From positions 1 to 64,000 of the forward strand of contig LADR01000089.1 of NCBI GenBank assembly GCA_000961655.1: a stretch of 64,000 nt of DNA, given 5' to 3'. This DNA is from Desulfatitalea sp. BRH_c12 (lineage in GTDB: Bacteria > Desulfobacterota > Desulfobacteria > Desulfobacterales > Desulfosarcinaceae). The translations under genes and the position numbers were made by a program. The notes below the pieces were generated by a model. The model ran no database searches, was not told the DNA's origin, and saw only the letters and a program-made list of their open reading frames with translations. Below are positions 1 to 63,865 of this stretch, piece by piece (the first letter of the stretch is position 1; every line of letters begins with the position of its first letter).

Positions 1-961
1 CAGATCGCCTTCGATGTCCATCTCCAGCCCGAGCATTTCTTCAGGATAGCCGGTCAAGCGGCTGACAATCCCCACCAGGGCCTGCGTGATTTTCGATGGT
101 GCAACTCCTGTCGCAGGCATTGCGGCAACGGGCGAGGGCAGCGGCGCGGAGGCCGGCGCCACATGCGCGCACAGGTAATCGCAAATCTGCCCGAGCGTTT
201 TCAATGTGCCGACCCTGTCGGGGGTCACCTTGGGCAGGTGGGGCAGGTGTTCTTCGAGCGCGGACAGGATCTCGACCCGCTTGATCGAGTCGATGCCCAG
301 ATCGCCTTCGATGTCCATCTCCAGCCCGAGCATTTCTTCAGGATAGCCGGTCAAGCGGCTGACAATCCCCACCAGGGCCTGCGTGATTTCCGATGGCGCA
401 ACTCCTGTCGCAGGCATTGCGGCAACGGGCGAGGGCGGCGGCGCGGAGGCCGGCGCCACATGCGCGCACAGGTAATCACAAATCTGCCCGAGCGTTTTCA
501 ATGTGCCGACCATGTCGGGGGTCACCTTGGGCAGGTGGGGCAGGTGTTCTTCGAGCGCGGACAGGATCTCGACCCGCTTGATCGAGTCGATGCCCAGATC
601 AGCTTCGATGTCCATCTCCAGCCCGAGCATCTCTTCAGGATAGCCGGTCAAGCGGCTGACAATCCCCACCAGGGCCTGCGTGATTTTCGATGGTGCAACT
701 CCTGTCGCAGGCATTGCGGCAACGGGCGAGGGCAGCGGCGCGGAGGCCGGCGCCACATGCGCGCACAGGTAATCGCAAATCTGCCCGAGCGTTTTCAATG
801 TGCCGACCCTGTCGGGGGTCACCTTGGGCAGGTGGGGCAGGTGTTCTTCGAGCGCGGACAGGATCTCGACCCGCTTGATCGAGTCGATGCCCAGATCGGC
901 TTCGATGTCCATCTCCAGCCCGAGCATCTCTTCAGGATAGCCGGTCAAGCGGCTGACAATC
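1..961 (-). repeat. Tandem 297-bp repeats encoding the PfaA acyl carrier proteins
   Basis: Identical landmarks recur every 297 bases (99 codons), for example at positions 1, 298, 595 and 892. Three full units and the start of a fourth are visible, and the array continues past the left edge. Units differ at only a few positions, and the inter-ACP linker is as conserved as the ACP itself. The similarity stops near 961, where the preceding Ala/Pro linker begins. Each unit is one phosphopantetheine-bearing ACP. Tandem ACP arrays are typical of PfaA proteins, and in known systems copy number affects product yield. Confidence 0.95.
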
Positions 962-3900: not shown

Positions 3901-4347
3901 TCGCCAGATAGGATGTCCCAACCGTGCGCCCAGGGGAATGACCAACTCCTGGGTACCGGTGACGCCCAAAATGACGCTGGCTTTGTCGCGGTCGAAAACC
4001 TTTCCGCCATCACCATATCCCGCGTCCGCCAAAGCTTGTTTGGCCACCAGCAACCCGAGCAGCTGTGAAGTATCGGTTGCTTCCAAAGCCGCTGGAGGAA
4101 TGCCGAACTCGGAAGGATCGAAGTCGATTCGTGGTAAAAAGCCACCCCTGTGGCAATAAATGTGATCGGGTTTTTTCGGATCGGGATCGTAGTAGTCGGT
4201 TAGATACTGGTGGGTATCCGGCGGATCGGAAACGGCATTGATACCGCGTGTCAGCAGTTTCAAAAAAGCCTTCAGATCCGAAGACTTGGCAAAAATGCAC
4301 CCGATGCCGACAATGGCGATCGATGATTGGTAAGGCTTTTTTTTCAT
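1..4347 (-). CDS. pfaA: PfaA-type polyunsaturated fatty acid / secondary lipid synthase, KS-MAT-ACPn (partial, 3' end beyond window)
   Basis: Iterative type I synthase subunit that loads malonyl units and condenses them on tandem ACPs. My own minus-strand translation from ATG at 4347 stays open to position 1 (1,449 codons). An N-terminal ketosynthase carries DAACASS (Cys about residue 210), VEAHGTGT and SNIGHTKAAAG. A malonyl/acyltransferase carries FPGQGSQYVG (about residue 580) and GHSYGE (about 673). A glutamine-rich, coiled-coil-like linker follows (about 980-1050), then an Ala/Pro linker and ACPs with the GIDSIKRVEIL motif (attachment serines about residues 1156, 1255 and 1354). A fourth ACP is cut by the window edge. 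The family normally continues into a ketoreductase and often a dehydratase, which would lie to the left. The next in-frame upstream ATG (4362) is followed at once by TGA, so 4347 is the first usable start; its ribosome-binding site is weak. pfaD lies on the same strand, separated by an opposite-strand gene. Confidence 0.93.
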   Translation of the reverse strand, partial: MKKKPYQSSIAIVGIGCIFAKSSDLKAFLKLLTRGINAVSDPPDTHQYLTDYYDPDPKKPDHIYCHRGGFLPRIDFDPSEFGIPPAALEATDTSQLLGLLVAKQALADAGYGDGGKVFDRDKASVILGVTGTQELVIPLGARLGHPIWRQSLADNNVPESTANAVIQGISDRYVPWQENSFPGLLGNVVAGRIANRFDLGGTNCVVDAACASSMAAIHMGLLELETGRSDLVLTGGVDTINDAFMHMCFSKTQILSASGDIRPFSQDADGTVLGEGIGMVVLKRLADAERDGNRIYAVIKGLGSASDGKSQSIYAPRPEGQALALRRAYQKAGIDPASIAMVEAHGTGTRVGDQVEFKALCDVFGKAGAAANGCALGSVKSNIGHTKAAAGTAGLIKAALAIYHKVLPPTLKAQPADAKLGVEKSPFYINHSLRPWPAEKDKPRRAGVSAFGFGGSNFHAVLEEYESQKAELSWDGSVEIAAFSGSNRETVADQVQQWAATITPHSSAREIGRKSAQSRRQFQVQDAIRAVMVIAVDRPDQVVQSCQAAEKSLRSGNGEIASAAYPVFIGHGKSPGPLAFLFPGQGSQYVGMGRDLICCLPASLDVLQEAAFHFDATHPLSEYLYPRMPGDKDRYEQRLRETDVAQPAIGAVSVALLEALRWFGIAPDATCGHSYGELVALYAAGRIDRENLWKLSVARGRLMAQAGAAGAGRMLAVIAPIEELARQIDPLENVVLANRNSPNQGVLSGPAAAIEAAEALCRQKGWDTIHLPVSAAFHSPLVSAAQEPFQKAVDQVEWRSGDIMVMSNTTGDVYPEETQAAKQLLGGQLAHPVDFISNIEALYDKGVRTFIEIGPKSVLTRLTKTILKGRAFEALALDNSAGREFGLVDLARTLAHLSALGYPIQLDRWEKPAPKSRVPRMRISLSGANYRSSTPPKAPTAGLRKVAIGTDGHGSTRPSLHAGAPAIPDGPSLTTPVAPPDLKTADRQKLQSEQIIVNTQKTFLNQALAAVQQGLSSMQALQSQTTQAHQKYLETQAEANRTLQQMVQSTQALAATAMGAVPAALPPAAAMTAPRAGIAQMVAPAASPAAIVAASPVTATAQSPVAPPEETVAAASNVLDDTVRASLIQIVSRLTGYPEEMLGLEMDIEADLGIDSIKRVEILSALEEHLPHLPKVTPDRVGTLKTLGQICDYLCAHVAPASAPLPSPVAAMPATGVAPSKITQALVGIVSRLTGYPEEMLGLEMDIEADLGIDSIKRVEILSALEEHLPHLPKVTPDMVGTLKTLGQICDYLCAHVAPASAPPPSPVAAMPATGVAPSEITQALVGIVSRLTGYPEEMLGLEMDIEGDLGIDSIKRVEILSALEEHLPHLPKVTPDRVGTLKTLGQICDYLCAHVAPASAPLPSPVAAMPATGVAPSKITQALVGIVSRLTGYPEEMLGLEMDIEGDL

Positions 4348-5093: not shown

Positions 5094-6815
5094 TCAGCAT
5101 TGCATCCTTTTATTGATTTCATCGACCGTCAACGGTCTGAAAATAGCCGCCTGATGCGGGACGCCAACACCCTGGTTGCGTAACCAGCTGCAACGGATGA
5201 TTCCGGCGGCGCCATAAAGAAGATTCAAAGCAATGGCCGCGGCACACCGCTGGGAAGGTTCTTCCAGAAAGGAGCCTTTGGTCCATGCGTTGAATGCCCC
5301 CATCGCAGGTCCGCACCAGATCTGATAATCCATTCTCCGACTGGGTTCTCCCGATTTGGCCCAAAGGGACGATTGCCCTAAATAAGACCTGAACACCAAC
5401 GCCATCTTGTGTTTCGGATCCCGTTGGGCGCGTTCAATCTGGGACGGGTCACGCTGTTCGAAGAACCGTTGGGTTTGATCCCAGGCCTGATCAAAGCTGG
5501 ATCTCAAAAAATCTTTTTCGATCACTGTTCGGGCCGGCGCCGGCAACTGACCGAAGTCGTCGTAGGCACGATAAAGTTCATACAGTTTGGCCGCGCGCAT
5601 GGCAAACATGGTTCCTCGTTTGAGAACCTGGACCTTCACGCCCATTTCGAACATATCGGCGGCCGGTGCCATGGCAACGTCCGCTTGGGCGGCTTGGGCC
5701 AGCATTTCACGTACGGTTTGAGATGTATCGGCCTGAATGCTGGCTTGGTTGATAGAACCGGTCAATACATAGGCCGCGCCCATAGCGAATGCGGCCGCTG
5801 TCGCTTCTGGAGTGGCAATGCCGCCACCCAGCCCCACGCGCAATGGCATTGCAAAACGATGCTCACGCATGGCTTCGTCGCGCAAGGCCAGGAAAGTCGG
5901 CAGCATAGTCAATGCCGGTCGATTGTCGGTATGCCCACCCGAGTCCGCTTCGGCAGTCATATCCTGGGCCATGGGTATGTGGCTCGCCAACTGAGCTTCG
6001 TTTTGACTGATCTTTCCAATGCGCAGCAATTCGTCGAGCATTTTCGGGGGTGGCGGCGCAAAGAAACGGCTGGCCACTTCGACACGCGATACTTTTGCAA
6101 CCACTCGGTTGGGACAAACGATGCTGCCATCCGGCGTCTGATGGATCCCCTTGACCCGAAAATACACCAATGGCAACGTCAGCGCGAGATAGGCGGATGC
6201 GCTGACCAAATGAATGCCCCTATTAAGATAAAGATCAACGACCGCCGTTTCCAATTGCGGATCGTTGGGACTATGGATGAGGTTGAAACCATAGGCATAT
6301 GCATTGCGATCGCCATTCAGGAGGTCGATGGCGCGCGCCACCTGAGACAGGGACAATCCGCCCGCTCCGAAAAAACCGATCATGCCCGCCTGGCCGGCCG
6401 CCTGAAGCAACGCCACGGAGGTAATGCCGTTGGCCATGGCCCCGACCACATAGGCATAACGCAGGCCTAAATCTGCTTTAAAACCGGCATCTCCGAGATC
6501 GGCCGGGAGCAGGGGCGGGGCGAATCCCAGTAAAGGGTCCCCGGCATCCGCTTCTTTCAGGGGATCACCCCAGACCATTGTTCCTGTGTGCGTGACCGCG
6601 GGGCCATCCTCATGGGCGACCACATAGATGGGGCGTCCGGAATTAGCGATGGCTTCTTTGAATGCTGTTGCACCCGTTCGTGGTTCTTTGCGGTTTCCGA
6701 TCCATTTTCCGCGGGTTACTGGTAGGCTGGTGTTGATCACGTTGGGTTCCCTTGGTACGTTCGTTAGCGCAGTCCATACTGCTGATAGGACCTCATCGAG
6801 GTCAAAAGGTATCAA
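5094..6815 (-). CDS. pfaD: PfaD-type trans-acting enoyl reductase
   Basis: 573 residues, the usual PfaD size. It is an FMN-dependent nitronate-monooxygenase-like TIM barrel that reduces enoyl intermediates on the PUFA synthase. GMIGFFGAGGLSLSQVARAI, LRVGLGGGIATPEATAAAFAMGA and AYVLTGSINQAS (flavin-binding segments), the MFEMGVKVQVLKRGTMFAMRA segment and a helical C-terminus with FRSYLGQSS all fit PfaD. The only suitable start is TTG at 6815: an in-frame stop lies 9 codons upstream and the first ATG is deep inside the conserved region. AGG sits 9 bases before the TTG. It is co-oriented with pfaA but not contiguous with it. Confidence 0.92.
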   Translation of the reverse strand: MIPFDLDEVLSAVWTALTNVPREPNVINTSLPVTRGKWIGNRKEPRTGATAFKEAIANSGRPIYVVAHEDGPAVTHTGTMVWGDPLKEADAGDPLLGFAPPLLPADLGDAGFKADLGLRYAYVVGAMANGITSVALLQAAGQAGMIGFFGAGGLSLSQVARAIDLLNGDRNAYAYGFNLIHSPNDPQLETAVVDLYLNRGIHLVSASAYLALTLPLVYFRVKGIHQTPDGSIVCPNRVVAKVSRVEVASRFFAPPPPKMLDELLRIGKISQNEAQLASHIPMAQDMTAEADSGGHTDNRPALTMLPTFLALRDEAMREHRFAMPLRVGLGGGIATPEATAAAFAMGAAYVLTGSINQASIQADTSQTVREMLAQAAQADVAMAPAADMFEMGVKVQVLKRGTMFAMRAAKLYELYRAYDDFGQLPAPARTVIEKDFLRSSFDQAWDQTQRFFEQRDPSQIERAQRDPKHKMALVFRSYLGQSSLWAKSGEPSRRMDYQIWCGPAMGAFNAWTKGSFLEEPSQRCAAAIALNLLYGAAGIIRCSWLRNQGVGVPHQAAIFRPLTVDEINKRMQC

Positions 6816-15816: not shown

Positions 15817-15868
15817 ACACTAAATTCCCTTCGGTGCTTCCTGACCGCGATTGGTCCTGCGATCCAGC

Positions 15869-51882: not shown

Positions 51883-54800
51883 ATGTGCATGCAAAAAGAG
51901 GTTCCGATAGCCATTGTTTCCATGGCGGGTGTCTTTCCGAGAGCCACTGGAATTGAGCAATTCTGGCGGAATATCGTCGACAAGGTGGATGCCACGGAGG
52001 TGGTTCCGACACATCGGTGGTGCGGACCGCTGGACTGGGTTTACGATCGTGCTCCGGCCCCGGATAAAGCCTATTCCAAGCGGGCCTGTTTGATCGATGG
52101 TTTTCGGTTCGACGGCAGTGATATGGCGATCGATCCTGCTGAGGTCGCTGGTCTGGACCCCCTCTACCAATGGGTTCTGTATGCGACCGGTGATGCTTTG
52201 CGGCATTGCGATGTGTCGAAAGTGGATAAAAAACGTGTCGGGGCTATTCTGGCGGCGATTGCCCTGCCGACCCGGTCCTCATCTGCCCTGGCGTCCAAGC
52301 TTTTCGGCGCTCAGTTATTGGGTTCCCTGCTGCCGGCACAAAATGCGCCGGCCATTTCAGCTATTGAATCCTTGCGCGACCGGGTCGTCGCGAGGCCTGC
52401 ATCGTTGGTTTGCAGCGCTTTCGGCCTGGGGGGCACGGCCTACACGCTGGATGCGGCCTGCGCTTCCTCATTATATGCGTTGAAGTTGGCCTGCGACGAA
52501 CTGCGCGGTGGCCGCGCCGATGCCATGATCACGGGAGGGGTTTCGGCGGCCGATTGCCTCTATACGCAAATCGGTTTCAGCCAGTTGCGGGCGTTGTCGC
52601 CGTCCGGGCGGTGCGCGCCGTTCGATCGGACGGCGGATGGCCTGGTGGTGGGTGAAGGCGCCGGCATTCTCGTGCTCAAGCGCCTGGACGATGCGTTGCG
52701 GGATCAGGATACGATCTACGGTGTGATTCGCGGGATCGGTTTGTCCAATGACATGCGTGGCAATCTGTTGGCACCGGAATCGGACGGGCAGCTGCGCGCG
52801 ATGCGAGCGGCCTATTCGGAAGCGGGTTGGCAGCCATGGGATGTGGATTATATCGAATGCCATGGCGCGGGCACGCTGGTGGGCGATGCCACCGAATTGA
52901 AAAGCCTGCGCACCCTTTGGCAAGCGGCCGACAGCGCGCATCGCTGCGCGATCGGCTCGGTCAAATCCATGATCGGCCATCTGCTCACCGCGGCCGGCGC
53001 GGCGGGTTTGATCAAAACCCTGCTGGGGCTTCAGCGTCACATCTTGCCGCCGTCATTGAAATTTGAACGGCCGGCCGAAGGCAGCCCTTTGATCGACAGC
53101 CCTTTTGCGGTTCAAACCACGGCCGCGCCCTGGTTGCCAAAGGATGCCTCTGCGCCCAGGCGGGCGGCGGTCAGCGCCTTTGGCTTCGGGGGGATCAACG
53201 GGCACGTGCTTATTGAGGAGTGGCCGAGGCCAAGCGATGGCTCTGCTTGCCAAAAAGTGCCAACGGTAGCTGTTACCCACACCCGTGCGACTGAACGACG
53301 ATCCGACGCGATCGCCATCGTCGGCATGGATCTGTGCCTGGGTTCCCTGCAATCCGTGCAAGCCTTTCAGCAAGCTGTGTTCGCAGGCCATTCGGCCCTG
53401 CGGGCCGTTCCCGCCGAACGCTGGAAAGCGCCCGGGACCATGCGGGAGCTTTTCGGGACGGCGGCCGCGATCGGCGGATTCATGCAAGAGATCGTGGTCG
53501 CAATCGGCGAATTTCAGATTCCGCCTGGTGAAATCGCGGATATTCTGCCCCAGCAATTGTTGATGCTCAAAACGGCTGCCGGCGCCATCCATGATGCCGG
53601 CTTGCCCTTGCGCGAACCGCGGGCCCGTATGGGCGCCATCATCGGCATCGGCTTCGATTATGAGGCCACCAATTTTCACCTGCGCTGGGTGCTGCCACAA
53701 TTGCTCGAAGAGTGGCGCCGGCACTACGGCTGGACAGTTGCGGCGGAGAAGCTCGAACAGTGGCTCGAAAGGGCCAAAGACGCCTGTGGCCCGCCATTGA
53801 CGCCTTCACGGACACTCGGCGCCTTGGGCGGCATCGTGGCCAGCCGCATCGCCCGCGAATTCCGCTTAGGCGGCCCCTCCTTCGTGGTTTCAGAGGAAGA
53901 GGCCTCCGGACTGCGTGCGGTCGAGATCGCCATGCGCATGCTCAGGTCCCGTCAAACGGATGCCATGCTGGTTGGCGCGGTCGATCTGGCCGGCGACGAA
54001 CGCAATCTGGCGACTTTGCTGGCGCGCGGCGACGTGAGCCCGTCAGGCATGGTCCGGCCTTTCGACCACAATGCGGATGGCACCCTGCCCGGCGAAGGCG
54101 CCGTGGCTCTGGTGCTCAAACGTCTGGAGGACGCCCAAGCGGATGGCGATCGCATTTATGCCGTGATACGCGGGGTTGGCAGCGCCCGTGGCAACGATGC
54201 CCCAGCCCTGCCCGCCGCCTACCGTGAATCCCTCGCACACGCTTTGGATGATGCGCGGATTTCCGCTGACACGGTCACTTTGGTGGAAACGCATGGCAGC
54301 GCCATTGTTTCGGAAGATGCCGTTGAAGCCGAGGCGCTGACTTCTTTTATGCGCAACGCCGGTGGCCGTGCTCCGGAACACGCGGTTTCCATCAGTGCCT
54401 TGAAACCGCTGGTGGGGCACACCGGGGCGACCTCCGGCCTGGCCTCCCTGGCCAAGACATCCTTGTGCCTTTTCCATCACCTGCTGCCCGCCATGCCCCA
54501 TTTCGACACCGCCGGCCAGCGTCAGTTGCAAGAAGGTCCGTTTCATTTCCCCCGCCAAACCACCTACTGGGCAGGCAACCGGGAGGAAGGCGCACGCACG
54601 GCAGTCGTGGCCGCCATGACAGGTGACGGCAACTGTATGCATGCGGTGCTGGCGCAGTCCGATGCAGCAGGGTCAACGCCTACAGGACCTGTCTTGAATC
54701 AACGCCGCCGGCCGATGGGTCCCCTGCCTTACGCCTTGTTCGTGGTCAAAGGGGACAGCAAAGAAGACCTGATGGCCGGGCTGCGGCGTGTGGAACAGCT

Positions 54801-57800
54801 TGCGTCGACCTGCGATCACGCTTCTGCACCCATGGAGCAGCTTGGCCGTCACTGGTTCAAGAACGAGCAGCCGACCACCGGCCGGTCGCAGACCCTATCG
54901 ATTCTGGCCCATTCGCCGGAGGAACTGCGCGGCTATCTTGCTCAAGCGCAACGGGTCGTTCAGGATGCGCAAACCCATCCGATGGCCGCTCGCGGCGGGG
55001 TGTGTTACCTGCCTGCCATCGCGCAGCAAAAAGGCCGCCTGGCCTTCGTTTTTCCCGGCTCGGGCAACCACTACGTGGGTATGGGCCGAACGTTGGGCGC
55101 CCATTGGCCCGAAATCTTGAGGGACATGGACGGCAGCACCGCCCGGCTCAAGGCGCAGATGCTGCCGCATTTGTACGATCCCTGGCGCAGCAATTGGTGT
55201 CCCGGTTGGCCGACCGAGAGCTACCAGGCACTGGTTGCCGATCCATTGCACCCCATTTTCGGCCAGGTGGTGTTTGGATCCCAGATGGGCGGTCTGTTGC
55301 GCGGCTTTCAGCTGCAGCCCGATGCTGTGATCGGGTATAGCCTGGGAGAGTCGGCCGGACTTTTCGCACTCGGCGCCTGGATCGATCACGGCCAGATGCT
55401 CGCGCGTCTGGCGGCCTCCGATCTTTTTAAAACCGAATTGTGCGGACCGCTGCTTTCTCTCAAACGCGCCTGGGGGCTCGCTGCCGATCAAGAGGTGCAC
55501 TGGGTGGCCGCCGTGGTCAACCGGCCGGCCGAACAAGTCGATCGGGCCATCGCGCACGCTCAGCATGTCCGCCGGCTCATCATCAACACGCCCAATGAAT
55601 GCGTCATCGGCGGAATTGCGGACGCGGTCGCCAAGGTCATTGCCGCACTGGGCTGCGAGGCCCTCTATTTGGACGGCGTGGTCACGGTGCATTGCGATGC
55701 GGCGCAACCGGTGGCGCAGGCCTACAAGGACTTGCATCGGTTTGCGACCCACGCTGTTCCCGGCGTTCAGTTTTACAGTTGCGCGCGCGGCGAATCCTAT
55801 GCGCTGACCTCCGAAAGCGCGGCCGATTCGATTCTGCGCCAGGCCCTGCACGGTTTCGATTTTCCGCGCACCATTGGGCAGGCGTACACGGACGGGGTCC
55901 GCGTGTTTGTCGAGGTGGGCCCGCAATCTTCGTGCACGCGCATGATCCGGCAGATTCTGGGCGATCGGCCCCATCTGGCAGTCGCAGCCAATGTGCGCGG
56001 CGAAGATGAGTGCCTGACGCTGCTCAAATGCCTGGGAACCGTGGCGGCTGCCGGGATGGATGTGGACATGGCCCTATTGTATGACTATGCGCAGGGTCCA
56101 GGGTCGCGCCGGGGTTCGGCGCCGGCAGAGGCAAACCGCAAGACGATCCGTGTCAAAGTGGGCGGCCGGCCGCTGCAATTGCCGCCGCTGCCCATCGAAA
56201 AAAACGATCCGCAACTGTCGACAACCGGCCCTGCCCCGGTATCGCCGCAGCCGGCGGATATGGCTGACATCGCGCCCATGCCTGCTGCGCCACCGCCATC
56301 GAATGCCGCTCCCTCGGCGGTTTCCGAGTTTCAGTCCCTGCTGGCCACCTTCGATGCCAATGTGGCGGCCACAGCACAGGTTCACGAACAATTTCTGGAT
56401 CTTTCCCAGGAGATGACCCGGCGGTTCGCGGAAACGTTCCAGTTGCAAAACCATTTGATCGGGGTGATAGCCGACCTGGGTGGCGGGACTATCTCGGCCC
56501 CTTCCGAACCGGTGGCCTTTACCCGCGAACAGTGCATGGAATTCGCGGTCGGGTCGGTCGGCAAGGTGCTCGGCCCCGCATTCGATGTGATCGACACCTA
56601 TAAGTGCAGGGTGCGCCTGCCCGATGAGCCTTTGATGCTGGTCGATCGCATCATGCTGGTGGAAGGCGAAAAAGGGGCTCTCGGGCCGGGGCGTCTGGTC
56701 ACCGAACATGACGTGCTGCCCGGTGCCTGGTACCTGGACGGCGGTCGTGCGCCGGTATGCATTTCCGTGGAGGCCGGCCAGGCCGATCTTTTTCTGAGCA
56801 GCTATCTGGGCATCGACCACCAGGTCAAGGGCGAACGCGCCTATCGGCTGCTCGACGCCAAAATTCAATTTCATCGCGGGCTGCCCCGCGCCGGCGAAAC
56901 GATCCGCTACGATATCCATATCGATAAGTTCGTCAAGCAGGGCGCCACATACCTTTTCTTTTTCCGTTTCGAAGGCCATATCGACGGGCAGCATCTGATC
57001 ACCATGACCGAGGGCTGCGCCGGCTTTTTCACCGAACAGGAGGTGGCCAACTCCGGCGGCATCATCCTGACCGACGAAGATCGTGCACCCGCGACGGCCA
57101 TCGGCGGAAAGCCATTTTTTCCGATCTTGCCATTGCCTGACAGGGAAACATTTCACGACGCTCAGATCGAAGCCCTGCGCAGCGGCGATGCCGCCGCCTG
57201 TTTCGGTCCGGATTTCGCTGGGGTAACCCTGCCCGATTCTTTGTGCCTGCCCCAAGGGCGCATGCGCCTGATCGACCGCATCGTGGCTTGCGATCCTGCC
57301 GGCGGCCGCTGGGGCAAAGGGCTCATCAAAGCCGAAGCCGATATCCAACCGGATGCCTGGTTTTTGACCTGCCATTTTGTGGATGACAAGGTCATGCCGG
57401 GGACGCTGATGTACGAGTGCTGCGCCCATACCCTGCGCGTGCTGCTGTCGCGCCTGGGGTGGGTCACCGACAGCAGCGCGGTCGCTTACGAACCGGTGCC
57501 GGAGGTGCCCTGCCGCTTAAAGTGCCGCGGGCCGGTGACGCCGCAGACACGCCACGTGCATTACGTGGTGGAGATCAAGGAAATGGGCTATCGTCCCGAA
57601 CCGTACGTCCTGGCCGACGCCCACATGTATGCCGACGGCGACTATATCGTGTTCTTCAAAGATATGTCGCTGCAGATGACCGGTTTGAGCCAAGCGGGCA
57701 TCGAAGATTTCTGGCGCCGCCGCGGACAGTCAAATCGACTGTCGACGCCCGCACAACCGCCGGTTTTGGCTGCAATCGGCCCAAAGCCCCCCCTGTTCAC

Positions 57801-58923
57801 GCGCGCGCATATTCTGGAATTTGCCCAGGGCCGCCCCTCCAAGGCCTTTGGGGAACCATACGCCCCGTTCGACGACCAGCGTCGCATTGCCCGTTTACCC
57901 GCCCCGCCCTATTGCTTCATGGATCGTGTGACGGCCATCGAGCCGGAACCGTGGGTGGTCAAAGCGGACGGTTGGATCGAGGCCCAGTATGATATGCGGG
58001 CCGATGACTGGTATTTTACGGCTGACCGCAGCGGCGTGATGCCCTTTTGTATCCTGCTGGAAATCGCCTTGCAGCCCTGCGGCTGGCTGGCGGCCTATGT
58101 CGGCTCCGCCTTGCGTAGCCGCCAGGATCTGAAATTCCGCAATCTGGGGGGCCGGGCCACACTTTACGAAAACCTGCTGCCTGCCGACCGGACGCTGACC
58201 ATGCGGGCACGCATCTCCAAAGTATCGGAGGCGGCCGACATGATCATTGAAAATTTCGACTTCGAAGTCCACGACGGGGACAAGCCGGTATACAGCGGCA
58301 CGACCTATTTCGGATTTTTCACGGCGCAGGCGCTCGCTCAGCAAGTGGGACTGCGCGAGGCGGTCTATCGGCCCGATGAGGACACCCATCAGGCTGACAT
58401 CGTTGCACGGCTGGCTGACGAAGCCCCCTTGGTGCCGGACGATGTTCAGCCGGGCACTATTGGTCAGCCCCAGGGGTTGGTGATGCCGGCCAAGGCGTTG
58501 CGCATGATCGACAGCATCGACCTTTTCCAGGCCACTGGCGGGCCGCAAGGCTTGGGCTATGTGCGCGGCCGCAAACAGGTGGACCCATCCGAGTGGTTTT
58601 TCAAGGCCCATTTTTACCAGGATCCGGTCTGTCCCGGCTCTCTGGGGGTCGAGTCTTTCCTGCAGCTGATCAAATACGCCGCCATGCAACGTTGGCCTGA
58701 ATTGCGGGAATCCCATCGTTTCGAAATGGCGAGCGGCCAAGCGCATGAATGGCAATACCGCGGACAGGTCGTGCCAACCAACCGCACTGTGACGGTCGAG
58801 GCCGTGATCACGCGGGTGGCCGAAGGTCTCCAACCGCTGATGGTGGCCGATGGGTGGTTGCAGGTGGATGGCCTGTACATCTATAAGATGGTCGGATTCG
58901 GGTTGCGGCTGGTTGCTATATAA
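51883..58923 (+). CDS. pfaC: PfaC-type megasynthase: KS - CLF - AT - DH - DH
   Basis: 2,346 residues. Active KS at about 8-460 with DAACASS (Cys193), CHGAGT (His327) and GHLLTAAG (His366). A second KS-like domain (about 480-925) has VSEEEASGL where the Cys would be (Glu673), so it is a chain-length factor. AT domain about 1045-1370 with FPGSGNHYVGMG and GYSLGES (Ser1153), PfaB-like. After an Ala/Pro linker come four FabA-like hotdogs forming two dehydratase didomains; the catalytic His lies in CHFVDDKVMPGTLMYE (His1831) and AHFYQDPVCPGSLG (His2243). This order equals the Pfa3 proteins of myxobacteria, but without their C-terminal acyltransferase (AGPAT). With PfaA and PfaD it would make polyunsaturated chains. 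oleA follows 260 bases downstream. ATG at 51889 is an equally possible start. Confidence 0.92.
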   Translation: MCMQKEVPIAIVSMAGVFPRATGIEQFWRNIVDKVDATEVVPTHRWCGPLDWVYDRAPAPDKAYSKRACLIDGFRFDGSDMAIDPAEVAGLDPLYQWVLYATGDALRHCDVSKVDKKRVGAILAAIALPTRSSSALASKLFGAQLLGSLLPAQNAPAISAIESLRDRVVARPASLVCSAFGLGGTAYTLDAACASSLYALKLACDELRGGRADAMITGGVSAADCLYTQIGFSQLRALSPSGRCAPFDRTADGLVVGEGAGILVLKRLDDALRDQDTIYGVIRGIGLSNDMRGNLLAPESDGQLRAMRAAYSEAGWQPWDVDYIECHGAGTLVGDATELKSLRTLWQAADSAHRCAIGSVKSMIGHLLTAAGAAGLIKTLLGLQRHILPPSLKFERPAEGSPLIDSPFAVQTTAAPWLPKDASAPRRAAVSAFGFGGINGHVLIEEWPRPSDGSACQKVPTVAVTHTRATERRSDAIAIVGMDLCLGSLQSVQAFQQAVFAGHSALRAVPAERWKAPGTMRELFGTAAAIGGFMQEIVVAIGEFQIPPGEIADILPQQLLMLKTAAGAIHDAGLPLREPRARMGAIIGIGFDYEATNFHLRWVLPQLLEEWRRHYGWTVAAEKLEQWLERAKDACGPPLTPSRTLGALGGIVASRIAREFRLGGPSFVVSEEEASGLRAVEIAMRMLRSRQTDAMLVGAVDLAGDERNLATLLARGDVSPSGMVRPFDHNADGTLPGEGAVALVLKRLEDAQADGDRIYAVIRGVGSARGNDAPALPAAYRESLAHALDDARISADTVTLVETHGSAIVSEDAVEAEALTSFMRNAGGRAPEHAVSISALKPLVGHTGATSGLASLAKTSLCLFHHLLPAMPHFDTAGQRQLQEGPFHFPRQTTYWAGNREEGARTAVVAAMTGDGNCMHAVLAQSDAAGSTPTGPVLNQRRRPMGPLPYALFVVKGDSKEDLMAGLRRVEQLASTCDHASAPMEQLGRHWFKNEQPTTGRSQTLSILAHSPEELRGYLAQAQRVVQDAQTHPMAARGGVCYLPAIAQQKGRLAFVFPGSGNHYVGMGRTLGAHWPEILRDMDGSTARLKAQMLPHLYDPWRSNWCPGWPTESYQALVADPLHPIFGQVVFGSQMGGLLRGFQLQPDAVIGYSLGESAGLFALGAWIDHGQMLARLAASDLFKTELCGPLLSLKRAWGLAADQEVHWVAAVVNRPAEQVDRAIAHAQHVRRLIINTPNECVIGGIADAVAKVIAALGCEALYLDGVVTVHCDAAQPVAQAYKDLHRFATHAVPGVQFYSCARGESYALTSESAADSILRQALHGFDFPRTIGQAYTDGVRVFVEVGPQSSCTRMIRQILGDRPHLAVAANVRGEDECLTLLKCLGTVAAAGMDVDMALLYDYAQGPGSRRGSAPAEANRKTIRVKVGGRPLQLPPLPIEKNDPQLSTTGPAPVSPQPADMADIAPMPAAPPPSNAAPSAVSEFQSLLATFDANVAATAQVHEQFLDLSQEMTRRFAETFQLQNHLIGVIADLGGGTISAPSEPVAFTREQCMEFAVGSVGKVLGPAFDVIDTYKCRVRLPDEPLMLVDRIMLVEGEKGALGPGRLVTEHDVLPGAWYLDGGRAPVCISVEAGQADLFLSSYLGIDHQVKGERAYRLLDAKIQFHRGLPRAGETIRYDIHIDKFVKQGATYLFFFRFEGHIDGQHLITMTEGCAGFFTEQEVANSGGIILTDEDRAPATAIGGKPFFPILPLPDRETFHDAQIEALRSGDAAACFGPDFAGVTLPDSLCLPQGRMRLIDRIVACDPAGGRWGKGLIKAEADIQPDAWFLTCHFVDDKVMPGTLMYECCAHTLRVLLSRLGWVTDSSAVAYEPVPEVPCRLKCRGPVTPQTRHVHYVVEIKEMGYRPEPYVLADAHMYADGDYIVFFKDMSLQMTGLSQAGIEDFWRRRGQSNRLSTPAQPPVLAAIGPKPPLFTRAHILEFAQGRPSKAFGEPYAPFDDQRRIARLPAPPYCFMDRVTAIEPEPWVVKADGWIEAQYDMRADDWYFTADRSGVMPFCILLEIALQPCGWLAAYVGSALRSRQDLKFRNLGGRATLYENLLPADRTLTMRARISKVSEAADMIIENFDFEVHDGDKPVYSGTTYFGFFTAQALAQQVGLREAVYRPDEDTHQADIVARLADEAPLVPDDVQPGTIGQPQGLVMPAKALRMIDSIDLFQATGGPQGLGYVRGRKQVDPSEWFFKAHFYQDPVCPGSLGVESFLQLIKYAAMQRWPELRESHRFEMASGQAHEWQYRGQVVPTNRTVTVEAVITRVAEGLQPLMVADGWLQVDGLYIYKMVGFGLRLVAI

Positions 58924-58987
58924 AATGATAGCATGGTTTTAGCACCCATTTGAATTAGTTACGCATTCCGCTCCAGGGATTATGGGC

Positions 58988-59051
58988 GAAGTGTTAAGTG
59001 TAAAGGGAGGCATTCTGTCGATTTGACATGCTCACCCCCCATGTTGCACGC
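58988..59051 (-). repeat. Interspersed intergenic repeat, copy 3 (inverted)
   Basis: Read on the minus strand, it has the same order of segments as the copy at 26147-26227: CAACATGGGGGGTGAGCAT, TCGACAGAATGCCTCCC, TTTACACTTAACACTTC. It lies between pfaC and oleA. Confidence 0.7.
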
Positions 59052-59070
59052 TTTTACGTGCATGTTTTGT
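59045..59070 (+). terminator. Weak hairpin between pfaC and oleA
   Basis: Stem TGCACG/CGTGCA (59045-59050 with 59057-59062), loop CTTTTA, followed by TGTTTTGTT. It could attenuate pfaC transcripts before oleA or mark oleA as a separate unit. Confidence 0.4.
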
Positions 59071-59183
59071 TAAAGGTTTTAAGAATTACAACGTAACCTT
59101 CTTATGACACCCTATACCTGTGTCATACTGGAGTGACGTGCATAACCAGATTACACCATTAATTGAGTTGATTGGAATCAGGA

Positions 59184-60224
59184 ATGCGTTACACGAAGGT
59201 TCGTATTGCCGGGTTCGGCTACGAGTTGGCACCCAATGTCGTTACCACGGAAGATTTGGAGAAACGTCTTGCACCGGTCTATGAAAAGCTGCATCTGCAG
59301 CCCGGGCAACTCCAGGTGCTCACAGGCATCGAGGAACGCCGTTTCTGGGATCCGGACGCACGCCTGTCCGAAGGCGCTGTGCGGGCCGGGCAAAAAGCGT
59401 TGACCGCGGCCGCCATCGCGCCGCAAGATATCGGCATGCTGATTTATGGCGGGGTGTGCCGCGAGAACCTGGAGCCGGCGACCGCCTGTGCCGTGGCCAA
59501 CGGGTTGCGCCTGGGCGGCGGCGCACAGATATACGACGTGTCCAATGCCTGTCTGGGGGTGCTCAACGGCATGGTGCAGATCGCCAATGCCATTGAACTG
59601 GGCCAGATCGGCGCCGGAATGGTCGTGTCGTGCGAGTCGTCCCGCCAAATTGTCGACATGACCATCGACCGTCTGCTGAAAACGGGCAGCATGGAAGTTT
59701 TCAAAGAGACGATCGCCACACTGACGGGCGGCTCGGGTGCCGTGGCGGTCGTGTTGTGTGACGCCTCAGATCCGGCACAAGGTCGCCGGTTGCTGGGCGG
59801 GGTGGCACGCAGCGCCACGCAGCATCACGGCTTATGCACCTGGGGACCGGACACTGGCATACCGGCAAGCCTGCCTCTGGTGATGCGGACCGATTCGGTG
59901 GGCGTTCTCAAGCACGGGGTGACGTTGGGCCTTGAAACCTACCGGGCGTTCCGGCAAGTACTGGGCTGGTCCGACGACCAGCCCGACAAGGTGATTTGCC
60001 ATCAAGTCGGCTCGGCCCATCAGCGCACGATTCTGGATGCCATTCGCATCGACCCATCCAAGGATTACACAACCTTCCGCTATCTCGGCAATATCGGAAC
60101 CGTATCGCTGCCGATAACGGCCGCCATCGCCGACGAGCGACAGTTCCTGCAGCCTGGCGACCTGGTGGGCTTTTTGGGTATCGGCAGCGGTCTGAACTGC
60201 ATGATGCTGGGGATTCGATGGTAA
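59184..60224 (+). CDS. oleA: OleA, acyl-CoA head-to-head condensing enzyme (thiolase superfamily)
   Basis: 346 residues from ATG at 59184 (an in-frame TTG at 59172 is possible). A KAS III-like fold with Cys123 in SNACLG, Glu97 in RENLEPA, His273 in CHQVGSAH and Asn303 in LGNIG. The spacings Glu-to-Cys (26) and His-to-Asn (30) match what I recall for Xanthomonas OleA (E117, C143, H285, N315), so the full catalytic set is present. It performs non-decarboxylative Claisen condensation of two fatty acyl-CoAs to a 2-alkyl-3-ketoacid. First of oleABCD; overlaps oleB by 7 bases. Confidence 0.94.
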   Translation: MRYTKVRIAGFGYELAPNVVTTEDLEKRLAPVYEKLHLQPGQLQVLTGIEERRFWDPDARLSEGAVRAGQKALTAAAIAPQDIGMLIYGGVCRENLEPATACAVANGLRLGGGAQIYDVSNACLGVLNGMVQIANAIELGQIGAGMVVSCESSRQIVDMTIDRLLKTGSMEVFKETIATLTGGSGAVAVVLCDASDPAQGRRLLGGVARSATQHHGLCTWGPDTGIPASLPLVMRTDSVGVLKHGVTLGLETYRAFRQVLGWSDDQPDKVICHQVGSAHQRTILDAIRIDPSKDYTTFRYLGNIGTVSLPITAAIADERQFLQPGDLVGFLGIGSGLNCMMLGIRW

Positions 60225-61120
60225 TTATGGACACACCTATCCTGAACGATGCCGTGGCCCGTCTCTATCCGTTCACATCCAACTACCTGGCGTTGAACGG
60301 ATTGCGCTATCACTACCTGGACGAAGGGTCCGGAGAACCGCTGATCATGCTGCACGGCAATCCGACCTGGTCCTTCTATTTTCGCGCCTTGGTGTCAGCG
60401 CTGAAAACAGAGTACCGCGTTATCGTACCGGATCATATGGGCTGCGGCTTGTCGGACAAGCCCACCTTAGCGCAGTACGATTTCCGCCTGCAAAGGCGTA
60501 TTGCGGATTTGGGAATGCTGATCGATCACCTGAAAATAGATCGCCCGATCACGATCATCGCACATGATTGGGGCGGAATGATCGGTCTGGGATGGGCGCT
60601 GAACAATCTGCAGCGCGTGGGCCGTCTGGTGTTGATGAACACGGCCGGCTTTTTTCCACCTTCGGGCAAATCGATCCCGCATCGTTTGCGCCTGATCCGC
60701 ACGCCCAACCCGGTCATGGAACGTATCGTCCTGCATTTGAATCTTTTCGCCCGCGCGGCCATTTACATGGCTCCCCGCCGCCGGCTGTCGGCCGCGGTCC
60801 GGGCCGGCCTGCTCGCGCCCTACAACACGCCGCACAACCGGTTGGCCACGCTGAAGTTCGTCCAGGATATCCCCTTGAACGAGAAAGATCCCAGCGGGCC
60901 GATCGTATCCGCTGTCGACCGCAATCTTGCACGGATCACCCAGCGGCCGGTAATGCTGGTCTGGGGGGCCCACGATTTCGTTTTTGATCGCCACTATTTC
61001 AATGAATGGCAACGGCGCGTACCCCACGCCCAGAGCCACTGGCTGCCCGAAGCAGGCCACTATTTGCTCGAAGACGCCCCGCACAAAATCGCCGGCCTGA
61101 TTCGTGAATTCTTGAAATAG
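60218..61120 (+). CDS. oleB: OleB, beta-lactone decarboxylase (haloalkane dehalogenase-like alpha/beta hydrolase)
   Basis: 300 residues from ATG at 60218 (GGGGA upstream; ATG 60227 is an alternative). Oxyanion region LHGNPTWSFYFR, nucleophile Asp117 in AHDWGG, and C-terminal LVWGAHDFVFD and GHYLLED with the catalytic His. It decarboxylates cis-beta-lactones to cis-olefins. In some lineages OleB is fused to OleC; here it is separate. It starts within the end of oleA and ends 28 bases before oleC. Confidence 0.93.
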   Translation: MVIMDTPILNDAVARLYPFTSNYLALNGLRYHYLDEGSGEPLIMLHGNPTWSFYFRALVSALKTEYRVIVPDHMGCGLSDKPTLAQYDFRLQRRIADLGMLIDHLKIDRPITIIAHDWGGMIGLGWALNNLQRVGRLVLMNTAGFFPPSGKSIPHRLRLIRTPNPVMERIVLHLNLFARAAIYMAPRRRLSAAVRAGLLAPYNTPHNRLATLKFVQDIPLNEKDPSGPIVSAVDRNLARITQRPVMLVWGAHDFVFDRHYFNEWQRRVPHAQSHWLPEAGHYLLEDAPHKIAGLIREFLK

Positions 61121-61148
61121 CATCCAAACGGGTGTTATATGTGCCGCC

Positions 61149-62843
61149 ATGCAATCATTCGATGAAACGATCCCGTTGACCGAAGACGACGCGGCTCAGC
61201 CGTTTGTCAATGTGGCCATGCGCCTGAAAACCATGGCCAGAATCCAACCCTATCGCCGGGCAGTGGTTTCCCCGGCCGGCCGGGACCGGCATGGACGCGT
61301 GGCTTACAGCCATCTTACCTTCCGCCAGCTCGACCGCGAGTCCGACTGCTTTGCCCATGGCCTGGAAGCCGCCGGCATCAAGCGCGGCACGCGCACCATC
61401 TTGATGGTGCGGCCAAGCCTGGAATTTTTCGCGCTCACGTACGCCATGTTAAAAGTGGGTGCCGTTTTCGTGATGGTCGACCCCGGCATGGGCGTCGGCC
61501 GCATGCTGGCCTGCCTGCGCGATAGCCGCGCCCAGGCGCTGGTCGGCATCCCGCCGGCGCACGTATTGAGGACTCTTTACCGATCATCGTTCCGTACGGT
61601 CAAGACCGCCGTGACTGTCGGCCGCCGCTGGTTCTGGCGCGGTTTGACCTTGAAAGATGTCCGCCAACTGCCGTGGCAGCCCTACAACGTGGCCAACACC
61701 AACAAAGATGAGATGGCCGCTATTTTATTCACGACCGGCAGCACTGGCGCGGCCAAAGGGGCCATCTACACACATGGCGTCTTCGATGCCCAGGTGCGCC
61801 TGATCAAAACGCAGTTCGGCATCTCTCCGGATGAAATCGATCTGCCCACCTTTCCGCTCTTTGCGCTCTTCGATGTGGCCTTGGGCATGACTGCCGTCAT
61901 CCCGGATATGGACCCCACCCGGCCGGCCCAGGTCAACCCGCAGAAAATCATCGAGGCGGTGCTCAACCAGGGCGTCACCAATATGTTCGCTTCGCCGGCG
62001 CTGCTCAACCGCGTGGGCCGCTACGGAAATACCAACGGGACCAAACTGCCTTCTTTGAAGCGCATTATTTCGGCCGGTGCGCCTGCTGCGCCCGCAACGA
62101 TTGCGCAATTCGCCGCTCTGCTCGAAGAGGATGCCGAAATCCACACGGGCTATGGCGCCACCGAAGCCATGCCGGTCTCTTCATTCGGCAGCAAGGAGAT
62201 TCTTTCCGAAACTGCCGCGTTGACCGAGCAAGGCTTCGGCATTTGCGTCGGCCGGCCGATCCAAGAACTGGCTGTGAGAATCATCAAAATCTCCGACGCC
62301 CCCATCGATGCATGGTCCGATGCGCTGGTGGTGGCTGACGGCGAAATCGGCGAAATCACCGTCAGCGGCGATATCGTCACCAAAGGCTATTTCCAACGGC
62401 CGCTCGATGATGCCATGTCCAAGATCAGAGACAATGGCCGCATTTGGCACCGTATGGGAGATCTGGGCTGGAAAGACAAGAAGGAACGCATCTGGTTTTG
62501 CGGCCGCAAAGGACATCGGGTGATCACGCCCGAAGGAACGCTGTTTACAATTCCCTGCGAAGCAATTTTCAACAATCATCCGGCGGTGTTCCGCAGCGCC
62601 CTGGTCGGAGTGGGCCAAGCGCCGCGGCAGCGACCGGTGATCTGCATCGAGGTGGAAGCGGATCATCGCCGCGACGACCGTGAACGGTTGACCCGTGATC
62701 TGCTTGAAATGGCCAAGCAAAATATTCTGACCGAGCGGATCGACACCTTCATGTTCCATCCTGGTTTTCCGGTGGATATCCGCCACAACTCAAAAATATT
62801 CCGTGAAAAATTAGCGACATGGGCGCAGCGCAGACTTCAATGA
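61149..62843 (+). CDS. oleC: OleC, beta-lactone synthetase (AMP-binding superfamily)
   Basis: 564 residues. Acyl-adenylate-forming enzyme with the phosphate loop FTTGSTGAAKGA (about residue 195), HTGYGATEAMPVS, WHRMGDLGWKD and a C-terminal Lys in HNSKIFREKL. OleC uses ATP to close 2-alkyl-3-hydroxyacids into beta-lactones. The N-terminus (PFVNVAMRLKTMARIQPYRRAVV) fits OleC rather than ordinary acyl-CoA ligases. Its stop overlaps the oleD start (ATGA). Confidence 0.93.
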   Translation: MQSFDETIPLTEDDAAQPFVNVAMRLKTMARIQPYRRAVVSPAGRDRHGRVAYSHLTFRQLDRESDCFAHGLEAAGIKRGTRTILMVRPSLEFFALTYAMLKVGAVFVMVDPGMGVGRMLACLRDSRAQALVGIPPAHVLRTLYRSSFRTVKTAVTVGRRWFWRGLTLKDVRQLPWQPYNVANTNKDEMAAILFTTGSTGAAKGAIYTHGVFDAQVRLIKTQFGISPDEIDLPTFPLFALFDVALGMTAVIPDMDPTRPAQVNPQKIIEAVLNQGVTNMFASPALLNRVGRYGNTNGTKLPSLKRIISAGAPAAPATIAQFAALLEEDAEIHTGYGATEAMPVSSFGSKEILSETAALTEQGFGICVGRPIQELAVRIIKISDAPIDAWSDALVVADGEIGEITVSGDIVTKGYFQRPLDDAMSKIRDNGRIWHRMGDLGWKDKKERIWFCGRKGHRVITPEGTLFTIPCEAIFNNHPAVFRSALVGVGQAPRQRPVICIEVEADHRRDDRERLTRDLLEMAKQNILTERIDTFMFHPGFPVDIRHNSKIFREKLATWAQRRLQ

Positions 62844-63865
62844 TGAAAGACCACAACATGGCCGGTAAACGACGGGTTCTGGTCACCGGTGGCGGCGGTT
62901 TTCTGGGCGGTGCCATCGTGCGCCTTCTGGTGGCCCGTGGGGAACGGGTGCGAAGCCTCTCGCGGGGCCATTATCCCGAGTTAGCCCGCTTGGGGGTCGA
63001 GCATATCAGCGGCGATATCGCCGATCGGGAGACGGTCCGACGCGCCTGCCGCGATGTGGAAGCCGTCTTTCACACGGCGGCCAAACCTGGCGTGTGGGGC
63101 CCGTATGCCGCTTATTACCAGGCCAATGTGCAAGGCACCCTGAATGTCATCGAGGCCTGCAAGTCCGCCGGCGTCGCACGCCTGGTCTACACCAGCTCAC
63201 CCAGCGTCATCTTCGATGGCAGCGACATGCAAGGCGTGGACGAGTCAGCCCCTTACCCCGCGCACTTTGGAGCGCACTATCCTGCCACCAAAGCGTTGGC
63301 CGAACAAGCGGTTCTGTCAGCCGCCCGCAACGGTCTGGCGGCCATCGCCCTGCGCCCGCACCTGATCTGGGGTCCGGGCGACAATCACCTGGTGCCGCGC
63401 ATCATAGCACGGGCTGCACGACTGAGGCGTATCGGCAGCGGCCACAACAAAGTGGATACCATTTACATCGACAACGCGGCCTGGGCGCACGTCCTGGCCG
63501 AAGCGCGTCTCCGTCAGGATGTGACATTATCGGGACGGGTCTATTTCATCAGCCAGGACGACCCGGTACCGCTGTGGGACATGGTCGACCATATTCTCAC
63601 CGCCGCCGGCCTGCCGCCGGTCCGGAAAAAGATCTCTCCCGCTCTGGCCGCAGCGATCGGAGCTGCCTGCGAGACCATTTATGGGCTGTTCAGAATAGCC
63701 TCCGAGCCGCCCATGACCCGTTTCGTGGCCCGCGAAATGGCCACCGCGCACTGGTTCAACATCGACGCAGCCAAGCGCGATCTGGGGTACAGCCCCACGA
63801 TTTCGACCTCGGAAGGATTGCAACGGCTATCGGAATGGCTTAAAAAAGAGATCGTTGCGTGTTAA
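62840..63865 (+). CDS. oleD: OleD, NADPH-dependent 2-alkyl-3-ketoalkanoate reductase (SDR)
   Basis: 341 residues from ATG at 62840, overlapping the oleC stop by 4 bases; in-frame ATGs at 62819 and 62858 are alternatives. NAD(P)-loop VTGGGGFLGGAIV, AVFHTAAKPGVWGPYAAYYQANVQGTLNVIEAC, YTSSPSVIFDG and the catalytic pair in HYPATKALAEQ, all characteristic of OleD/3-beta-HSD-like SDRs. It reduces the OleA product to the hydroxyacid used by OleC. Completes the ole set. Confidence 0.94.
   Translation: MMKDHNMAGKRRVLVTGGGGFLGGAIVRLLVARGERVRSLSRGHYPELARLGVEHISGDIADRETVRRACRDVEAVFHTAAKPGVWGPYAAYYQANVQGTLNVIEACKSAGVARLVYTSSPSVIFDGSDMQGVDESAPYPAHFGAHYPATKALAEQAVLSAARNGLAAIALRPHLIWGPGDNHLVPRIIARAARLRRIGSGHNKVDTIYIDNAAWAHVLAEARLRQDVTLSGRVYFISQDDPVPLWDMVDHILTAAGLPPVRKKISPALAAAIGAACETIYGLFRIASEPPMTRFVAREMATAHWFNIDAAKRDLGYSPTISTSEGLQRLSEWLKKEIVAC

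Follow-up and report, generated by a model that had tools for sequence, protein, structure and literature searches.

The pfaC-oleABCD locus of the sulfate reducer Desulfatitalea sp. BRH_c12 and a probable Pfa-plus-Ole hydrocarbon pathway with genes in two places

Genes at the pfaC-oleABCD locus

The sulfate reducer Desulfatitalea sp. BRH_c12 carries five consecutive genes on the plus strand of contig LADR01000089.1, namely pfaC followed by oleA, oleB, oleC and oleD, all with intact motifs (Table 1). The window analysed here is the whole 64,000-nt stretch from position 1 to position 64,000 of that contig. A preliminary description had claimed a KS-CLF-AT-DH-DH megasynthase followed on one strand by oleABCD with intact catalytic residues, and domain profiles, a motif search and alignments confirmed this.

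Table 1 Features of the Pfa and Ole genes in the window
Feature	Position	Strand	Basis
pfaA front, KS-AT-ACP(n)	1..4347	-	TIGR02813 1226.1 bits (cut-off 1010.1)
pfaD, enoyl-reductase subunit	5094..6815	-	TIGR02814 607.3 bits (cut-off 449.25)
pfaC (pfaBC-type fusion), PUFA-synthase subunit KS-CLF-AT-DH-DH, 2346 aa	51883..58923	+	domain profiles, motifs, structure match
putative weak terminator-like hairpin between pfaC and oleA	59045..59062	+	hairpin scan
oleA, head-to-head condensing thiolase	59184 (ATG)..60224	+	PRK09258, match to X. campestris OleA 3fk5, catalytic residues
oleB, alpha/beta-hydrolase of haloalkane-dehalogenase type; predicted beta-lactone decarboxylase	60218..61120	+	HDWGG and GHY motifs
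oleC, AMP-forming, beta-lactone-synthetase-like	61149..62843	+	PRK09274 743.6 bits (cut-off 478)
oleD, 2-alkyl-3-oxoalkanoate-reductase-like SDR	62840 (or start 62819)..63865	+	NF042422 below cut-off; motifs GGGFLG, YPATK

The domain scan of PfaC returned two ketoacyl synthases, an acyltransferase and four FabA-like stretches, and the best match among solved structures was 6riw (E 1.2e-128). A scripted search located the motifs DAACASS in the KS, GYSLGE in the AT and HFYQDPVCPG in a DH. The first DH motif, HFVDDKVMPG, was read from the translation, and eight of its ten residues are invariant in a 14-row alignment. At the position of the KS cysteine, the CLF has VSEEEAS. PfaC is a KS-CLF-AT-DH2 fusion with intact KS, AT and DH motifs, as looked for in a Type I/K-like synthase. 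Its fused AT scored 74.7 bits against the PfaB model TIGR02816, below the cut-off of 144.3, and its DH half is 71-72% identical in five congeners among the matches listed.

OleA scored 477.8 bits against PRK09258 (cut-off 285) and matched the Xanthomonas campestris OleA structure 3fk5 with an E-value of 2e-63. Residues C123, E97, H273 and N303 align with their counterparts in the X. campestris enzyme, which we take to be C143, E117, H285 and N315, and the Cys/Glu/His/Asn set is kept in all 54 OleA proteins aligned. While both enzymes have these catalytic residues in common, the OleA of the window bears about nine extra residues near 221-234 that X. campestris OleA lacks. This insertion was seen in 48 of 48 linked OleA proteins aligned, being shorter in loci L160 and L167. 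No second close oleA copy was found in the genome, where the two further matches reached 26-27% identity.

The genes oleB, oleC and oleD follow oleA on one strand, with an overlap of 7 bp between oleA and oleB and, with the oleD start at 62840, of 4 bp between oleC and oleD. An OleB match was present at 43 of 47 linked loci; HDWGG was kept in all 43 and GHY in 41. OleC fell below the NCBIfam equivalog cut-offs for Xanthomonas/Shewanella (622.8 against 900 for NF045786, and 600.2 against 850), as did OleD (415.4 for NF042422 and 408.9, against 580). The names OleC and OleD rest on best match and gene order, not on such equivalog status. The OleC motif GYGATE says little, since it occurred in only 5 of 34 linked OleC matches, and OleC matched none of the solved structures at E 1e-40.

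The gap between pfaC and oleA had been placed at 58924-59183, and these coordinates are correct. It spans 260 bp (263 by the measure used for the congeners), compared with 8-99 bp in five congeners among the matches listed. The weak hairpin lies within it, in a scan that yielded 17 such sites against 14.4 in shuffled sequence. With a gap larger than in the congeners and this hairpin inside it, pfaC and oleA of BRH_c12 may or may not be co-transcribed.

A Pfa set in two blocks

The window also contains pfaD and the front of pfaA on the minus strand, both of which the preliminary description had overlooked. The contig start cuts pfaA within its ACP repeats, and the rear part, ACP-ACP-KR-DH, lies on another contig (G000:C83:250401-253328). 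PfaD and a PfaA with KS-AT, tandem ACPs and KR, a further Type I/K-like feature, are present in the same genome, which rules out that pfaC is an orphan fragment. The genome has three PPTase-family matches, all on other contigs. Some 45 kb separate the pfaD-pfaA block from the pfaC-oleABCD block, which is on the opposite strand. The claim that the Pfa and Ole pathways are physically joined therefore holds for the PfaC half and fails for PfaA and PfaD.

The collinear order pfaD-pfaA-pfaC, also looked for as a Type I/K-like feature, is absent from the window. It is found in other lineages, where genomes G003 and G066 have pfaD-pfaA-pfaC-oleABCD in one line, as does locus L186 with part of PfaD. 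In the congeners G126 and G226, pfaD-pfaA and pfaC are likewise apart and divergent, and in the congener G243 they lie 22 kb apart on one strand. Since some other families keep one collinear cluster, Desulfatitalea probably split an originally collinear one. The stretch between pfaD and pfaC includes the housekeeping genes xer, pepQ, recC, the EF-G gene, tlyA, dxs and xseA, which show synteny with G126 and G226. Their position suggests that the pfaC-ole block moved or that the region was rearranged, and it rules out insertion of the polysaccharide region as the only cause of the split. The Desulfatitalea Pfa set is Type I-like in its predicted working and rearranged in layout, a likeness to Types I and K drawn from published descriptions of the Geobacter and Hxd3 clusters rather than from their sequences.

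Distribution of the pairing in the order

Among 291 genomes of the order, 181 had both OleA and PfaC, 14 OleA only, 16 PfaC only and 80 neither; as these genomes are related to one another, a Fisher value for the joint occurrence gives no fair probability. In 89 of the 121 genomes with both genes among the matches listed (lists of 150 rows, with matches in 195, 197 and 213 genomes), OleA directly followed PfaC on the same strand, with a median gap of 78 bp; in seven genomes, again among the matches listed, Pfa and Ole shared a contig but lay apart. We also scanned named loci, a set with a bias to close relatives that comprises the best 80 of 568 confirmed stretches. Of these, 71 were evaluable: OleA was next to PfaC at 47, OleB at seven and neither at 17. 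Conservation of the adjacency in relatives, which had been set beforehand as a condition, was borne out by both counts, and this recurrence rules out a chance adjacency of pfaC and ole. PfaC-OleA adjacency also occurs in MAGs named Planctomycetota and Acidobacteria.

The seven loci with OleB next (within the best 80 of 568) lack an oleA at this place; three of the seven carry the name Desulfosarcina. At L120, from Desulfosarcina alkanivorans PL12, the order is pfaC-oleBCD, again with no adjoining oleA. Some genomes have oleB adjoining pfaC and their only OleA match, a divergent one, elsewhere. Divergent OleA, a class set by eye from E-values of about 1e-60 to 1e-71, was the only kind in 26 of the 181 genomes with both proteins, and 16 of 197 PfaC-bearing genomes were without OleA at the threshold used. 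Pfa and Ole are therefore separable. Loci L148 and L150, named Desulfosudis oleivorans, have no ole gene adjoining pfaC. A common replacement gene beside pfaC was ruled out for the 17 loci with neither neighbour, since no downstream family occurred in more than three of them; Pfam assigned the first downstream gene at four of the 17 to a carboxylase, a histidine kinase (twice) and an antiporter.

On an unrooted PfaC tree built by a quick method, 11 changes are needed to explain the three neighbour states, but the well-supported branches alone force only four for OleA as neighbour. The neighbour labels were clustered on the tree, none of 500 shuffles giving so low a count, which is what one would expect for related genomes.

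Since the pairing is common in relatives and already described in Geobacter, the Desulfatitalea locus is a well-supported further example of a published arrangement and not a novel one. The joining of Pfa and Ole is preceded by descriptions for Geobacter bemidjiensis (PMC4882568) and Photobacterium profundum SS9 (PMC6463001).

Predicted pathway, alternatives and known systems

From the genes, motifs and PfaC-OleA adjacency observed, we infer the reactions, the product and the feeding of Ole by Pfa. We consider it probable that Desulfatitalea has a polyene-hydrocarbon pathway whose genes lie in two places and whose Ole part is fed by the Pfa synthase. PfaA, PfaD and PfaC would jointly assemble, on the tandem ACPs of PfaA, a polyunsaturated acyl chain with methylene-interrupted double bonds. 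Two of these chains, as acyl-ACPs or acyl-CoAs, would be condensed head to head by OleA; reduction of the beta-keto acid by OleD, ring closure to a beta-lactone by OleC and decarboxylation by OleB would then lead to a long olefin. The expected product, judged from Geobacter bemidjiensis and Shewanella, would be hentriacontanonaene (C31:9) or a homologue of other length; our claim stops short of all Pfa-made chains going to hydrocarbon. The direct precedent is G. bemidjiensis. Several observations weigh against this pathway and lower our confidence in it, namely the PUHC- entry for P. profundum SS9R (PMC6463001), the wide pfaC-oleA gap with its weak hairpin, the distant PfaA and PfaD, the genomes and loci in which Pfa and Ole are separate, and the OleC and OleD scores below the equivalog cut-offs.

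It is possible, if rather doubtful, that PUFA for phospholipids is the main Pfa product and that OleA draws off an intermediate, a reading partly compatible with a Pfa-fed Ole pathway. With a single synthase, Shewanella pealeana is described as both EPA+ and PUHC+ (PMC6463001). The fused AT of PfaC resembles PfaB, albeit below the model's cut-off, and a 2026 paper describes PfaB as a terminal acyltransferase by which the final PUFA is determined (PMC12895367). The PfaC-bearing genomes without OleA fit this as well. However, no phospholipid acyltransferase domain was found in PfaC or the scanned neighbouring ORFs, the recurrent PfaC-OleA linkage suggests that Ole is a main outlet, and the published entry for S. 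oneidensis MR-1 reads EPA- and PUHC+ (PMC6463001). A looser relation, in which Ole works on chains from ordinary FAS II and is linked to pfaC without metabolic coupling, appears improbable. Xanthomonas OleA is reported to condense ordinary saturated and unsaturated chains (PMC7064751), and the genomes with oleB beside pfaC and their sole, divergent OleA match elsewhere would agree with it. P. profundum SS9R, EPA+ in a published table, is PUHC- there despite its adjacent operons, so that adjacency alone is no proof of hydrocarbon production (PMC6463001). Against such an uncoupled Ole stand the recurrence of the adjacency in many families and in the MAGs of other named phyla, and the reported C31:9 production by G. 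bemidjiensis with its tandem cluster (PMC4882568).

For the Pfa-fed pathway, we regard a ketone or beta-lactone in place of the olefin as very unlikely. OleA without other Ole proteins is described as giving ketones (PMC6463001), and clusters without oleB are taken to yield beta-lactones (PMC7064751). The presence of oleB makes the olefin likelier than the beta-lactone, which it rules out as likeliest end product, and the OleB motifs are kept in Desulfatitalea and widely at the linked loci.

The Pfa-Ole linkage of Geobacter and Photobacterium now extends to Desulfatitalea and many families of its order, whose sulfate reducers hold an important place in anoxic marine sediment. Should they indeed make a polyene hydrocarbon, long-chain polyenes in sediments may in part stem from them, a source so far overlooked, and the pfaC-oleBCD loci without a linked oleA would be a natural test for the protein contact by which both pathways are coupled. 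A wider reading, speculative and on present evidence unlikely, is that PfaC and Ole form a lasting partnership in sulfate reducers, with Pfa serving chiefly polyene hydrocarbon and the loop of about nine residues marking Pfa-partnered OleA. In a Desulfosarcina-type lineage, a Xanthomonas-like OleA encoded outside the operon would have taken the place of the original one, with OleBCD still beside PfaC, which would make PfaC and OleBCD the lasting partners. If so, sulfate reducers would be major anaerobic producers of the polyenes in sediments.

The accessible parts of the literature searched contained no measured Pfa-Ole product for Desulfatitalea or sulfate reducers. Shewanella and Photobacterium, which are not strict anaerobes, have the same enzyme set and proposed flow to a C31:9 polyene, but their AT resides in a separate PfaB, whereas it is fused into PfaC in the window. 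The pfa and ole operons of P. profundum SS9 are described as adjacent, and E. coli with OleA and pfaABCDE gave a 31:8 ketone, which the authors attribute to a 16:4 acyl-ACP drawn from PfaA (PMC6463001). Among the published cluster types, Type C (Desulfatibacillum alkenivorans) has a KS-CLF-AT-DH2 fusion like Desulfatitalea PfaC and differs in that its cluster ends, on the 3' side, with pfaD, and Type K (Desulfococcus oleovorans Hxd3) is a sulfate-reducer cluster described as similar to Type I (PMC3098273). Geobacter bemidjiensis, a strict anaerobe, is described with pfaD, A, B, C, oleA, B, C, D and pfaE in tandem, and the compound it makes is hentriacontanonaene (PMC4882568). Shulse and Allen (2011) list its cluster as a secondary lipid synthase of Type I, in which pfaBC is fused (PMC3098273). 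According to these descriptions, it resembles Desulfatitalea in bringing together pfaD, pfaA, pfaB/C and oleABCD; in contrast to this single tandem cluster, Desulfatitalea has its genes in two distant blocks on opposite strands, with the PPTase-family matches on other contigs.

The pfaC-ole unit and the divided synthase

The window comprises the initial 64 kb of a contig of 83 kb, within a genome of 6.0 Mb. In a quick PfaC tree, its closest named relatives were Desulfatitalea: SH-aLRT support was 94 for the group that the window PfaC forms with D. alkaliphila and two Desulfatitalea MAGs, and 99 for the larger one that also includes locus L118. Domain, structure-match and motif searches confirmed that the megasynthase noted in the preliminary description is present and intact as a KS-CLF-AT-DH-DH PfaC, and oleA, oleB, oleC and oleD were likewise all found intact downstream of it. 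The window sequence has a 7-bp overlap between oleA and oleB and a possible 4-bp overlap between oleC and oleD, the pattern to be expected of a single transcript. Due to the 260-bp gap between pfaC and oleA and a weak hairpin, co-transcription in the window's strain is uncertain.

Features of the window and of other contigs (C83, C89) of its own genome (G000)
Feature	Position	Strand	Remark
pfaA, front	1-4347	minus	overlooked in the preliminary description; truncated inside ACP repeats by contig start
pfaD	5094-6815	minus	overlooked in the preliminary description
Spore-photoproduct-lyase-like protein	15851-16972
Polysaccharide region	26281-50817		GC about 39-46% from 32 kb onward
pfaC	51883-58923	plus
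oleA	59184-60224	plus
oleB	60218-61120	plus
oleC	61149-62843	plus
oleD	62840-63865	plus
PfaA rear, ACP-ACP-KR-DH	G000:C83:250401-253328 (L023)		far end of contig C83
Second large ketoacyl-synthase gene group	G000:C89:1-14000		open frames of 2403 and 1621 aa

A motif script identified three complete DLGIDSIK motifs in the window part of PfaA. The two contig ends carrying the broken PfaA showed no exact overlap, the break falling in tandem ACP repeats. As front and rear of PfaA and also PfaD were located, a full PfaA/C/D set exists in the genome. The physical joining of the two pathways claimed earlier therefore holds for pfaC with oleABCD; the full PfaA/C/D set, in contrast, forms two divergent blocks 45 kb apart. 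These are separated by housekeeping genes, among them the spore-photoproduct-lyase-like gene in this sulfate reducer, and by the low-GC polysaccharide region, which encodes glycosyltransferases, a DegT aminotransferase and a Wzm/Wzt-type ABC transporter. From the pfaC-side part of this region, only single genes were matched in the congeners G126 and G226. A PPTase-family match lies near the second ketoacyl-synthase group.

Conservation of the PfaC-OleA adjacency and origin of the split

Homologue searches in 291 genomes of the order (E <= 1e-60) recovered OleA in 195, the DH half of PfaC in 197 and PfaD in 213 genomes. Neighbour counts, based on the 150 matches listed per search, were drawn from related, partly fragmentary genomes. 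Among the matches listed, OleA and PfaC occurred together in 121 genomes, and the adjacency was conserved in 89 of them, with PfaC immediately preceding OleA in the same orientation at a gap of 4-2044 bp (median 78). The two genes resided on one contig yet apart in 7/121 and on different contigs in 25/121, the latter being beyond what draft assemblies resolve. Within the window's genus they were adjacent in all six listed genomes carrying both; in the seventh, G280, which gave no PfaC match, 329 bases separate the OleA start from a contig end.

In a separate scan of named loci (best 80 of 568 confirmed stretches), nine loci ended too soon to be judged; in the remaining 71, the next gene was OleA (47), OleB without OleA (7) or neither (17). 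These three states require 11 changes on the quick PfaC tree, where well-supported branches alone force four changes of the state with OleA next. Gain and loss are indistinguishable on this tree, and the adjacent state is the commonest. PfaC-OleABCD units were also present in L178, L181, L182 and L186, MAGs named Planctomycetota, Phycisphaerae and Acidobacteria, which share one branch of the PfaC tree with L187.

PfaD and PfaC shared a contig in 29 of the 118 genomes having both among the matches listed; in 16 of these 29 the two had the same orientation, with pfaD no more than 22 kb upstream, and in 10 of the 16 OleA also adjoined PfaC. A single row pepQ-xer-pfaD-pfaA-pfaC-oleABCD was found in G003 and G066. 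Within the window's genus, G126 and G226 have the same divided order as the window, with pepQ-xer still adjoining pfaD, and G243 carries both blocks on one strand, 22 kb apart. G274 and G268, of the window's family, show still other arrangements. The simplest reading would be one ancestral cluster from which the pfaC-ole block was displaced in the window's lineage.

Loci without oleA and the OleA clade

In seven loci (L120, L121, L122, L130, L157, L164 and L193), pfaC is directly followed by oleB without oleA, with oleC and oleD next in six of them at the scan threshold. L120, L121, L122 and L130 form one branch of the PfaC tree and three of them are named Desulfosarcina; since L154, also so named, has OleA next, the name is no rule for the layout. 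A renewed OleA search in the window's family took in six genomes (G274, G268, G250, G203, G173 and G152), and the four inspected, G274, G268, G250 (L122) and G203 (L164), have the pfaC-oleBCD layout. Each of the six yielded one OleA-like protein (37-40% identical), encoded on another contig than pfaC or megabases away. In alignments, these divergent copies retain the Cys, Glu, His and Asn; downstream of the one in G268 are PqiA-, MlaD-, ABC- and BrkB-type genes.

Compared with X. campestris OleA, the one sequence from a proven producer in the comparison, the window OleA has about nine additional residues at ~221-234. This stretch appeared in 48/48 aligned linked OleA, two of them shorter, and was missing from all six divergent copies. 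Three further OleA from the clade of the linked ones (L195-L197) carry it without adjoining PfaC, so it is a marker of the clade rather than of the adjacency.

Proposed pathway and known precedents

For the window's organism, we infer a scheme in which PfaA/C/D would make a polyunsaturated acyl chain, OleA would condense two such chains, and OleD, OleC and OleB would complete the olefin. From co-expression in E. coli, the authors of PMC6463001 concluded that OleA draws 16:4 acyl-ACP from PfaA. An olefin is the favoured product because oleB is intact here and oleB-less clusters are assumed (PMC7064751) to stop at the beta-lactone. The fused AT of PfaC resembles PfaB, described in PMC12895367 as a terminal acyltransferase, so the chains may be used in phospholipids as well. 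Phenotypes in PMC6463001 are mixed: its table lists S. oneidensis as EPA-, PUHC+ and S. pealeana as EPA+, PUHC+, and P. profundum SS9R is given as EPA+, PUHC-, though the species has adjacent operons. This cautions against a simple rule.

The literature searched yielded no product measured in Desulfatitalea or other members of its family; PMC10176705 describes Desulfobacteraceae-related oleC genes from anoxic water. Pfa-Ole linkage as a kind is not new. Shulse and Allen (2011, PMC3098273) found ole genes in 44/80 genomes with such synthases and described them as often linked with the synthase clusters. According to a 2016 review (PMC4882568), hentriacontanonaene is made by G. bemidjiensis, which has a tandem array of pfaD,A,B,C,oleA,B,C,D and pfaE. 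To these precedents our analysis adds the order-wide linkage count, the divided Desulfatitalea layout and the loci where oleA left the pfaC-ole unit.
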